Source: a bacterium (GTDB lineage: Bacteria; JACRDZ01; JAQUKH01). From it: a stretch of 64,000 bases of DNA. The notes beneath the pieces are model-generated. The model did not search any database and was not told the DNA's origin. It was given only the letters and a program-made list of their open reading frames with translations. Within the stretch, counting starts at the first letter, position 1; every line of letters starts with the position of its first letter. Where the stretch lies: the NCBI GenBank assembly GCA_040754625.1, contig JBFMCF010000033.1:1-64000 (forward strand), given 5' to 3'. A program made the position numbers and the translations under genes. Positions 417-3,299 of the stretch are shown piece after piece.

Positions 417-634
417 AATTCAACATCTCCATTTTTATTTAAAACAGCAACATTTAATAAAAATAACCAATCTAGGCACAATATAAAAACAGGAAAAGTC
501 ATGTCCCGATTTTGTTTTACATTTTGATATAAATCCAAAAGATTCTGTGTCGCTTGTTTTTGTAAGGCTTGTAATACAAATGCTCCATTGTAGTAAACAC
601 TGTGTTCTGGATGTATATTATCAGGTAGTAACAT
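407..634 (-). CDS. ABC-3C system middle component, MC6-like
   Basis: A 75-residue protein starting MLLPDNIHPEHS and carrying YYNGAFVLQAL and FILCLDWLFLLNV segments, a layout I recognise from the small middle components (MC6 type) encoded between effector and ATPase in ABC-three-component systems. In that family the middle component is thought to link the ATPase sensor to the effector. The ATG at 634-632 is chosen because it gives the family's MLLP start; a longer frame exists upstream but lies inside the effector gene. It overlaps the effector gene by 14 bases and the ATPase gene by 10. The gene looks intact although both neighbours are damaged. Confidence 0.7.
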   Translation of the reverse strand: MLLPDNIHPEHSVYYNGAFVLQALQKQATQNLLDLYQNVKQNRDMTFPVFILCLDWLFLLNVAVLNKNGDVELCS

Positions 635-1590
635 AATTATAATCCTTAGGATTTTCAAAAATTTTGCATCGAATAAATGCATCTACAACAAGAATATTTA
701 CGCAAAGTTCCAATTCATCAATAGGAATTTGAACAAAATTTGCACTTTTTTCTATTATTTCTTTGATTTTATCTATTACGGCAAAAAATAATTCATCATC
801 TTTAAAAGTATTTTTTGCTTTTAAATACTCCTGCTTTATTTTAGCTAATACAGAACTGCTTTTATTTAATCCTTGGGTATCAAATTCTGCATATTTTTTA
901 TCAAGCCGGTTATAATGAATTGTATAATCTTCTATTATATATTTTGCACTGTTTAAATTATTATAGGTAATCTTACGCTCAATTTCAAAACTGTCCGTTG
1001 TGCTACATTGATCTTGATTGATCCAATCTTCTTTCGATAAAATATTTATAATTGCGGCTAGGTTTGAATCTAATTTAATAACGTTGACTTCATTACCCAA
1101 TTCTTCATAGATTAAACGATAAATATTTTTTTGCTTATTGATTTCTAAAGTTGAAATAAATTTTAATATCGATGTAGTATCAAATATATCATTTAAAGGG
1201 TTAAAAATAACATTATGCGGATTTTTGTAAGTCTTGTTCCTTAAATTGCTTGCGTCTTTTGAAATTGAAATGAATTTAAAATTGTAATCAGGATGTCTTT
1301 TTATAATTTCTTTCTCTATTGCAGCTTCTATTTTTTCTTTTGTATTAGTAGCTGAAACCTGTACAATAATTTTGTTTGAATTATCAATCAAATCAATAGC
1401 TTCTACATTTTGAAGCTTACTATTTAAATTATTGAGATTCCAGTTGTAGAGTTGGTTAAAAAAATACATATAAAAATTTTCAGAGTGAATATGAAAATCC
1501 AAAATATTCAATTTACCTCTGGAATTTATTCTTACAGCAAGTACAGTTTGGCTTTTCTTCAATATAATTATAATATTTTGATCGGTTCAT
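621..1590 (-). pseudogene. SMEK-domain effector of an ABC-3C system, frameshifted near its start
   Basis: The main frame encodes about 313 residues with the SMEK-domain signature: INSRGKLNILDFHIHSENF, then NWNLNNLN, AIDLIDNSNKIIVQVSATN and TKEKIEAAIEK. SMEK domains are predicted nuclease-like modules at the N-terminus of ABC-3C effectors. The expected N-terminus, MNRSKYYNYIEEK, is encoded from an ATG at 1590-1588 in a different frame. The two frames meet around 1550-1556, so one base has been gained or two lost there. Translation could only rescue the main frame from the TTG at 1562, which would lose the first helix. A sequencing error remains possible, but the truncated ATPase downstream fits a dying operon. 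Confidence 0.75.
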
Positions 1591-1655
1591 TATCTTATAT
1601 TTTTCTTATAACCATAAACATTTACTATAAATTAGTCCAGTTATAAACTGTGTCT

Positions 1656-1847
1656 TCATTTTATTAAATTATCAAGAGATATATCGAACACTTTAGCTAT
1701 TTTAATAAGTGTTTCAATTTTCGGGTTTTTAATCCCACCGTTTTCCAATTTTATAACCGTATGATAAGAAATATTTGCTTTTCTTGCCAGTCCTTCCTGG
1801 GTTAGATTCTTTTCTTTCCTTATTTTTGCCAAATTTTTAAGATACAT
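1656..1847 (-). CDS. Xre/Cro-type helix-turn-helix repressor
   Basis: This 63-residue single-domain protein is almost entirely an HTH_3 fold: LAKIRKEKNLTQEGLARKAN, then ISYHTVIKLENGG and a C-terminal helix ending DISLDNLIK. It lies just upstream of the ABC-3C genes on the same strand and diverges from the serine recombinase. The 91-base divergent gap holds two AT-rich palindromes that are plausible operators, so I infer autorepression and control of the flanking genes. A GAGAGAA ribosome binding site precedes the ATG. Confidence 0.85.
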   Translation of the reverse strand: MYLKNLAKIRKEKNLTQEGLARKANISYHTVIKLENGGIKNPKIETLIKIAKVFDISLDNLIK

Positions 1848-1873
1848 AAATTCTCTCGACTTATATTACAATA

Positions 1874-1918
1874 CATATTATTCTAATACATAGAATATGA
1901 TTTCCTAATATGCATATT
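1874..1918. promoter_or_regulatory. Two palindromes in the HTH/recombinase divergent gap, candidate operators
   Basis: CATATTATTC...AGAATATG at 1874-1899 is an imperfect dyad, and AATATGCATATT at 1907-1918 is a perfect 12-base dyad. Both lie between the divergent start codons of the Xre repressor (1847) and the serine recombinase (1939). Position and symmetry fit repressor binding, but no promoter element is clear enough to place precisely. Confidence 0.4.
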
Positions 1919-1938
1919 TTAATCTTAAAGGAGTTACT

Positions 1939-2535
1939 ATGCAAGATAAATCACCGAAAATAAAATGCGCAATTTATACAAGAGTGAGCACAGATAATCA
2001 AGCCGAAGTCGAATTTAATTCCTGCGAGGCTCAGGAAGCAAAAATCAAATCCTTTATTGCCAGCCAGGAAAATATGGAACTTTTTAAAGTCTATTCTGAT
2101 GCGGGTTGGACAGGGGCTAATATTAACCGTCCGGCATTAAGTGAATTGCTAAATGATATTAAACAAAATAAAATCAACCTTGTTGTCTCTTATAAAATTG
2201 ACCGTCTAACCCGTTCGCCAAAGGATTTTTATCAGCTTATAGAATTATTTGATAAACACGGTGTAGATTTTATTTCGGTTACTGAAAGGTTTGATACTTC
2301 GACACCATCAGGGAGATTACTCCGTAATATTATGCTTACGTTTGCTCAATTTGAAAGAGAGCTTACCAGCGAAAGAACAAAAGACAAAATGCTGGAGCGC
2401 GCCCAAAAAGGCATGTGGAACGGCGGGATTGTGCCCTTTGGCTATAAAGCTGAAAATAAGAAGCTGATAATCAATGGAGATGAAGCTAAAATTATCCGTT
2501 CAATTTATGAAAACTTAAAATGTATTCTAAATTAA
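1939..2535 (+). pseudogene. Large serine recombinase, truncated after the catalytic domain
   Basis: The 198-residue product starts with the resolvase/invertase catalytic domain: the nucleophile motif YTRVS (Ser17), DAGWTGANINRPAL, SYKIDRLTRSPKDF and FAQFERELTSERT. It then enters the recombinase domain of large serine integrases (GIVPFGYKAENKKLIING). The frame ends at 'IRSIYENLKCILN', where family members continue for another 250-350 residues with the recombinase domain, zinc ribbon and coiled coil. The missing part is not found in other frames downstream, so this is a deletion remnant rather than a simple frameshift. The catalytic core is intact, but without the DNA-binding part integration is unlikely. 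AAAGGAG precedes the ATG. Confidence 0.85.
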
Positions 2536-2556
2536 ACACCGATTACGTTCCTCAAT

Positions 2557-2817
2557 TTATAGCCGCTTTAGTAAAAATAAATCTCCATTAATCAATGCTA
2601 TTTTCTTTCTTCTTGTCCATCGTTTGATCTGTGCTTCACGCTTCAGAGCTTTTGATCTGGTTTGATAAGTTTCTTTATAGGCGAGTTTTACAGGGGCATT
2701 ATAGCTGGTATAATGCGCTTTTTTATTAAGATGCTCTTTGAAACGGCGTTCTATATTATTAGTTACACCTGTATATAAAGATTTATTCTTACATTCTAAA
2801 ATATAAACAAACCACAT
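2557..2817 (-). CDS. GIY-YIG family endonuclease (YhbQ/UvrC-like single domain)
   Basis: The 86-residue product starts MWFVYILECKNKSLYTGVT, the GIY-YIG motif, with the catalytic arginine and glutamate regions at ERRFKEH and KALKREAQIKRW. Small stand-alone GIY-YIG proteins of this size cut branched or damaged DNA in vitro, but their cellular role is largely unknown. The start at 2817 is chosen because the N-terminal extension in the same frame is a translation of the upstream palindromic repeat. The gene is followed by a convergent truncated recombinase and preceded by a repeat block linking it to tRNA-Asn. Confidence 0.85.
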   Translation of the reverse strand: MWFVYILECKNKSLYTGVTNNIERRFKEHLNKKAHYTSYNAPVKLAYKETYQTRSKALKREAQIKRWTRRKKIALINGDLFLLKRL

Positions 2818-2821
2818 AATT

Positions 2822-2970
2822 TTTGTCCCTCGACTGTGGTGAGAAAAATCGAACCACTTCGCTCGGGACACTTCTCCTCGCTTGTGGTGAGTGAAATCGA
2901 AACAGCCTGTGAATCAAAATGAAACGGCCTTCTAGCTTGCACTGAGCGAGGCCGGAAGGCCGAGTCGAAG
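2822..2970. repeat. Palindromic repeat block between tRNA-Asn and the GIY-YIG gene
   Basis: The block repeats two words: GTGGTGAG(T/A)(G/A)AAATCGAA, at about 2834 and 2886, and the pair CCACTTCGCTCG / CGAGTCGAAGTGG, at about 2855 and 2961. The second pair is mutually inverted. The inner part GAGGCCGGAAGGCCGAG around 2948-2964 forms a GC hairpin directly after the tRNA CCA end. Similar GAGCGAAGTCGA-type palindromes are often seen beside small GIY-YIG genes in other genomes, from memory. Confidence 0.6.
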
Positions 2971-3299
2971 TGGCTCCCCGGGCTGGGCTCGAACCAGCAA
3001 CCCTTCGGTTACAAGTATCCTTTGAATTTCTTCAAAGCTTGGACTATCTCATTCCCTTGTCCGCCTTGGGCGGGTTTAGGGAGTGGGCGCTTCCCCCGAT
3101 TTCCATCGGAGTACTCCCTTGCGGGATAGTCTCTGCACGTTTTCGCTTACGGACTCACATCAGCGAACTTCGCTCAGGATTACCTTACACCTTGGCGGCA
3201 ATCAGGTTTTCCTGAATTCACCCACTTTTTCAACCACGATTTCTCGCGGAAGCTGCAACTTTTTTACAGCCGAATGCTCCACCATTGAGCTACCGAGGA
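2971..3299 (-). tRNA. tRNA-Asn(GUU) interrupted by a group I intron
   Basis: Exon 1 (3299-3266) gives acceptor TCCTCGG, D arm GCTC/GAGC and anticodon arm TTCGG-CTGT. Exon 2 (3011-2971) supplies TAA-CCGAA, a five-base variable loop, T arm GCTGG-TTCGAGC-CCAGC, acceptor CCGGGGA, discriminator G and an encoded CCA. Joined, the anticodon loop is CTGTTAA, anticodon GUU. All seven acceptor pairs form (one T-G wobble). Read without splicing, the loop would start CTGTAAA and look like a tyrosine anticodon, but that leaves the 254-base insertion unexplained. The acceptor sequence matches bacterial tRNA-Asn. Confidence 0.88.
3012..3265 (-). ncRNA. Group I self-splicing intron in the tRNA-Asn anticodon loop
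   Basis: The conserved group I core elements occur in order on the minus strand: P/Q-like sequences AATTCAGGAAAACCTG (3218-3203) and AATCCTGAGCGAAG (about 3182-3169), R element GTGCAGAGACTATCCC (3138-3123) and S element GAGATAGTCC (3050-3041). GACTATC of R and GATAGTC of S form a seven-base P7. P1 is exon GGCUGU paired to intron GCAGCU with the obligatory U-G wobble at the 5' splice site. The last intron base is G (3012). The 254-nt intron has no internal protein gene, so it should self-splice or rely on host factors. It interrupts anticodon positions 35 and 36. Confidence 0.85.

Follow-up and report, generated by a model that had tools for sequence, protein, structure and literature searches.

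A tRNA-Asn gene split by a group I intron

We analysed a 64,000-nucleotide (nt) stretch from the draft genome of an uncultured bacterium (contig JBFMCF010000033.1 of assembly GCA_040754625.1, positions 1 to 64,000; hereafter the window). On its minus strand it carries a tRNA-Asn(GUU) gene (3299-2971) in which a group I intron of 254 nt (3265-3012) lies between tRNA positions 35 and 36. The gene is made up of the following segments:

3266-3299, minus strand: 5' exon of tRNA-Asn(GUU), tRNA positions 1-35, TCCTCGGTAGCTCAATGGTGGAGCATTCGGCTGT (ARAGORN intron mode)
3012-3265, minus strand: group I intron, 254 nt, with a terminal G (omega-G at 3012) (RF00028, 79.9 bits)
2971-3011, minus strand: 3' exon of tRNA-Asn, tRNA positions 36-76, with encoded CCA and discriminator G73 (ARAGORN intron mode and exon reading)

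Searching the window with the Rfam group I intron model RF00028, as the original prediction had proposed, returned 3275-3020 on the minus strand over the full model (1-253), with a score of 79.9 bits (E = 1.1e-18) that is far above the curated cut-off of 50 bits. ARAGORN in intron mode called a tRNA-Asn(gtt) with identical boundaries and a 254-nt intron after gene base 34, which is tRNA position 35, the D loop lacking one base. The spliced 75-mer forms a complete cloverleaf in ARAGORN, with the GUU anticodon, G73 and CCA present, and the two exons pair at 7 of 7 acceptor positions (one G.U) and 5 of 5 anticodon-stem positions; minimum-energy folding of the same spliced tRNA, in contrast, did not give a cloverleaf. 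The precursor RNA is more stable than shuffled sequences (z = -4.1). In its unspliced form the gene was detected neither by ARAGORN in default mode nor by the Rfam tRNA model; it had been anticipated that the gene would be overlooked or mistaken for tRNA-Tyr, and it is simply overlooked. The split gene is genuine, and the host, 35/36 site, 254-base intron and ribozyme core originally proposed are all borne out by RF00028, ARAGORN and the covariation described below.

The intron fold is conserved and covarying

To assess the fold, a structure drawn from the window sequence was laid over an alignment of this intron with 10 related tRNA-Asn introns, using as controls the same helices with pairing partners slid by 1-3 columns. 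Across helices P1-P9, standard pairs filled 94.3% of 733 cells, as compared to 33-49% in the slid controls, and two-sided changes were found in 41 of 69 pairs. The following elements were assigned:

3251-3256, minus strand: internal guide sequence GCAGCU, forming P1 with exon GGCUGU (3271-3266), U.G at the splice site
3257-3259, minus strand: GUU, candidate P10 strand against 3'-exon AAC (3010-3008), weak, 3 pairs, proposed from sequence alone
3234-3249, minus strand: P2 hairpin, covariation in 6 of 6 pairs
3219-3225, minus strand: P3 5' strand GUGGGUG, partner 3089-3083, 98.6% paired, two-sided changes at 3 pairs
3173-3216, minus strand: P4-P5 domain, P4 at 3216-3211/3178-3173 and P5 at 3207-3204/3185-3182 (RF00028 and alignment)
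3138-3172, minus strand: P6/P6a domain, P6a covariation in 5 of 5 pairs
3127-3131, minus strand: P7 5' strand GACUA (R element), which forms the guanosine-binding helix with 3046-3042, 98.2% paired
3094-3126, minus strand: two extra hairpins between P7 and P3 (P7.1-/P7.2-like), covariation in 4 of 4 and 5 of 7 pairs
3083-3089, minus strand: P3 3' strand CGCCCAC (11-intron alignment)
3053-3082, minus strand: P8 and its extension (RF00028 and alignment), the extension 64% paired across the alignment
3042-3046, minus strand: P7 3' strand UAGUC (S element) (11-intron alignment and wider family)
3020-3037, minus strand: P9 hairpin, covariation in 6 of 7 pairs

The P3-P8 and P4-P6 domains and the P7 helix expected of an RF00028 member are thus present and backed by covariation, together with the group I splice features, a U.G pair at the 5' splice site and a terminal G. 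P1 is 98.5% paired across the 11 introns and its splice-site U.G is found in all 11, so that the earlier assignment of P1 (GGCUGU with GCAGCU), splice-site U-G and terminal G holds in both sequence and alignment; more widely, 98 of 125 related introns have GCAG close to their 5' end. P7, whose pairing can be extended to 7 bp in the drawing, is near-invariant in the 11-intron set, and its last A-U pair becomes U-A in 12 introns of the wider family.

The P4-P5 domain of the window intron resembles that of tRNA-Leu introns (e.g. L234), while the extra hairpins recall subgroup IA; a pair of hairpins in this position is not known to be usual in the classical bacterial tRNA introns (subgroup IC3). 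Like the introns of tRNA-Leu(UAA), Arg, Ile(CAU) and fMet (Paquin 1997; Biniszkiewicz 1994; PMC3984707, PMC4033280), this is a small ribozyme placed in the anticodon loop, with a P1 that involves the anticodon arm; it differs from them in its tRNA-Asn host, its 35/36 site and the two extra P7-P3 hairpins.

While the fold is established by comparison, the splicing chemistry is predicted from it. The precursor would fold so that P1 joins the intron guide with the end of the anticodon-stem 5' strand and C32-U33-G34-U35, and a guanosine bound in P7 would attack after U35. The freed U35 would then attack after the terminal G of the intron, joining the exons as GU/U and restoring the anticodon.

No second tRNA-Asn gene was found in the genome

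The genome (2.75 Mb in 138 contigs, 98.3% complete, estimated contamination 0.05%) holds 44 contiguous tRNA genes above cut-off, whose anticodons span all amino acids but asparagine. No second tRNA-Asn was found in this 98.3% complete genome, the spliced tRNA, used as a DNA query, returning only the two halves as a tRNA-Asn; an intact second copy, which the original prediction had set against itself, is therefore not seen. As the sole tRNA-Asn gene is the split one, the intron should be spliced in life, and we infer that it must be removed for AAU and AAC codons to be read. A second group I match in the genome (L002, 23.3 bits) falls under the cut-off and was taken as chance.

The tRNA-Asn intron family spans bacterial phyla and phage contigs

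Species genomes and viral contigs were surveyed for the 3' end of a group I intron followed immediately by the 3' exon of a tRNA-Asn, a pattern that occurs in at least 118 stretches of species genomes and in 26 viral contigs. A matching 5' exon is present on at least 108 genomic contigs (108 of the 118 listed) and on 17 of the 26 virus-classified contigs, real genomic 5' exons scoring 19-21 and shuffled or foreign DNA at most 17. The 10 genomic and 9 viral cases left uncounted for want of a good 5' exon include some at contig ends and some ordinary contiguous tRNAs. RF00028 scores above cut-off at the tRNA-Asn site of 16 of the 20 genomic loci tested and 7 of the 11 viral ones. Among the matches listed, hosts are mostly Patescibacteria, joined, by record title, by Omnitrophota, Elusimicrobia, Nitrospira, Acidobacteria/Aminicenantes, Bacteroidetes, Burkholderiales, Clostridia, Cyanobacteria and Planctomycetes. 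The window intron shares host, site, fold and the guide GCAG with the 35/36 introns of Elusimicrobia, Aminicenantes, Nitrospira, Omnitrophota, Cyanobacteria and others.

Across 386 genomes sampled from Bacteria, the same pattern was found in 10 and a reversed control in none. RF00028 exceeded its cut-off in 28 of these genomes, and exon reading, which corrected several ARAGORN host labels (Thr, Asp, Ser), identified 13 as tRNA-Asn; of the tRNA hosts that could be read, Asn is thus the most frequent for recognised group I introns in the sample. The remaining readable hosts were Leu(UAA), CAU tRNA, Arg(UCU) and one tRNA-Tyr(GUA); some of the 28 genomes carry matches that are not tRNA introns or whose host was not resolved. 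The tRNA-Tyr(GUA) intron lies at the same 35/36 site (L229:1477-1782) and is nested among Asn introns in the tree (support 0.96), which suggests jumps between GUN tRNAs.

Group I introns were noted in a CAU tRNA, there with a long open reading frame (ORF), and in tRNA-Arg(UCU) (L242, L247). Split tRNA-Asn genes lie on virus-classified contigs L182, L185, L186, L189, L191, L195, L197, L200 and L206, several of which bear long tRNA arrays. A BLAST search of the intron against phages gave partial matches alone, and the one region inspected was a ribonucleotide reductase intron, not a tRNA intron.

Published host lists give tRNA-Leu, fMet, Ile and Arg, and in cyanobacteria also Gly and Lys, as bacterial hosts; Asn is absent from these lists (PMC8450103, PMC4033280, PMC5733544, PMC4853749). 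Asn had been flagged from the outset as lying outside a list of known hosts, which agrees with those lists, but the rarity that this implied does not stand, as Asn is a common host in many phyla. For phages, a 2014 review described group I introns as then seen in protein genes only (PMC3984707). The tRNA-Asn 35/36 family is widespread and has probably been described already: Nakagawa et al. 2025 (bioRxiv 10.1101/2025.07.03.662931; cited in PMC12641178) announce in their title a novel tRNA insertion site of group I introns in Patescibacteria. Because Patescibacteria dominate the matches listed, the site named in that title may be this same one, and we do not claim priority for the Asn host. The window genome itself, at 2.75 Mb with 44 contiguous tRNAs, is unlike that of a typical Patescibacterium.

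An intronless relative and apparently mosaic exons suggest horizontal arrival

Just upstream of the split gene lies an oxidoreductase gene that is shared with a same-genus genome:

3368-4312, minus strand: TPP (thiamine pyrophosphate)-binding ferredoxin oxidoreductase subunit, porB-like (Pfam PF02775)

A survey of tRNA-Asn genes in related genomes, likewise suggested with the original prediction, revealed that in the same-genus genome G001 an intact, intronless tRNA-Asn stands at the syntenic place, directly downstream of the same oxidoreductase gene (L043 489-1424). This close relative thus carries an intron-minus allele of the locus, and the tRNA-Asn of G003, from the same phylum, is intact too.

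The closest intron, L232, belongs to a different phylum and shares 81.6% identity along its full length (255 positions). The window exons match an Elusimicrobia tRNA-Asn (L101) at 68 of 72 positions, as compared to 57 for the same-genus gene, and they look mosaic: the D and anticodon arms are of foreign type, and the final 28 bases, T arm through CCA, are identical to those of G001. Taken together, the closest intron in another phylum and the mosaic exons suggest horizontal arrival with co-conversion, and the intron was probably imported from another phylum.

A possible vehicle is encoded by the relatives. In a first survey, 20 of 24 introns longer than 450 nt carried an HNH-type ORF near the 5' end, with CxxC, HH and CxxCH motifs in most; such ORFs, of about 100-140 codons, occur in the long tRNA-Asn introns L063, L068, L072, L086, L130, L157 and others, and 1 of 3 intron ORFs tested passed the Pfam HNH cut-off. 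The window copy differs from these long relatives in that its 254-nt intron contains no endonuclease ORF. The intron would have arrived by homing via an HNH-type endonuclease, still encoded by relatives and lost here, with co-conversion of the flanking exon arms leaving a mosaic tRNA gene; these transfer steps are reconstructed from the comparisons above.

The main alternative, that descent was vertical and the same-genus relative lost the intron, with no homing involved, we consider unlikely. Precise loss is possible for group I introns, and the phylum is represented by four genomes only. However, the relative and a genome from another family of the phylum, both intronless, share one exon type (64 of ~73 tRNA-Asn positions) from which the window gene differs, the closest intron sits in another phylum, and no RF00028 match was found in the phylum's other genomes (four genomes compared). 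Less probable still is a pseudogene whose intron no longer splices while the cell relies on another tRNA-Asn outside the assembled contigs: the assembly is indeed in 138 contigs, but all stems and splice-site features are intact and covarying, no second tRNA-Asn occurs in 98% of the genome, and many other genomes show this arrangement. Assembly error or contamination, conceivable in a metagenome-like draft, is negligible given that the intron lies within an 85-kb contig, beside the gene that adjoins tRNA-Asn in the same-genus genome, with contamination estimated at 0.05%.

We favour, with high confidence, a ribozyme within the sole tRNA-Asn(GUU) gene that belongs to a family spanning phyla and phage contigs and that most likely arrived horizontally by HNH homing. 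Several points weigh against this reading. Splicing is predicted from DNA rather than RNA data; an HNH gene of this type was not found in this genome; transfer direction and donor are deduced from a tree of moderate support; the L101 intron is not the closest, though the L101 exons are; the mosaic is read from short stretches in a phylum with few genomes; and, with the assembly 98% complete, a slight chance of a further tRNA-Asn persists. More tentatively, and with somewhat less than even confidence, we propose a single HNH-homing group I family specialised on the C32-U33-G34-U35 loop of GUN-anticodon tRNAs (mostly Asn, once Tyr), which would move between bacterial phyla and tailed phages, overwriting part of the host's sole tRNA-Asn and leaving chimeric tRNA genes.

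Standard tRNA annotation overlooks such genes, so that genomes seem to lack an essential tRNA. Intron homing at the tRNA-Asn site may connect bacteria with phages, and the intron-minus allele in the genus, the HNH-bearing relatives and the mosaic exons allow homing into an essential, single-copy tRNA gene to be tested.

Neighbouring genes and repeats

A GIY-YIG gene adjacent to the tRNA (2557-2871) was considered as a free-standing homing endonuclease and rejected as unsupported, because the genome has 7 GIY-YIG matches and such genes lie within 2 kb in 9 of 108 related loci. Together with a resolvase, a helix-turn-helix protein and a SMEK/ABC-3C-type protein, it occupies window positions 621-2871 beside the tRNA, a stretch that may be a small island of mobile or defence genes. 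Two 29-nt direct repeats that are 83% alike (2828-2904) separate this GIY-YIG gene from the tRNA. In G001, from the same genus, 20 bp of the tRNA-Asn 3' end recur ~200 bp downstream (L043:1779-1798), resembling the attachment site of an integrated element.
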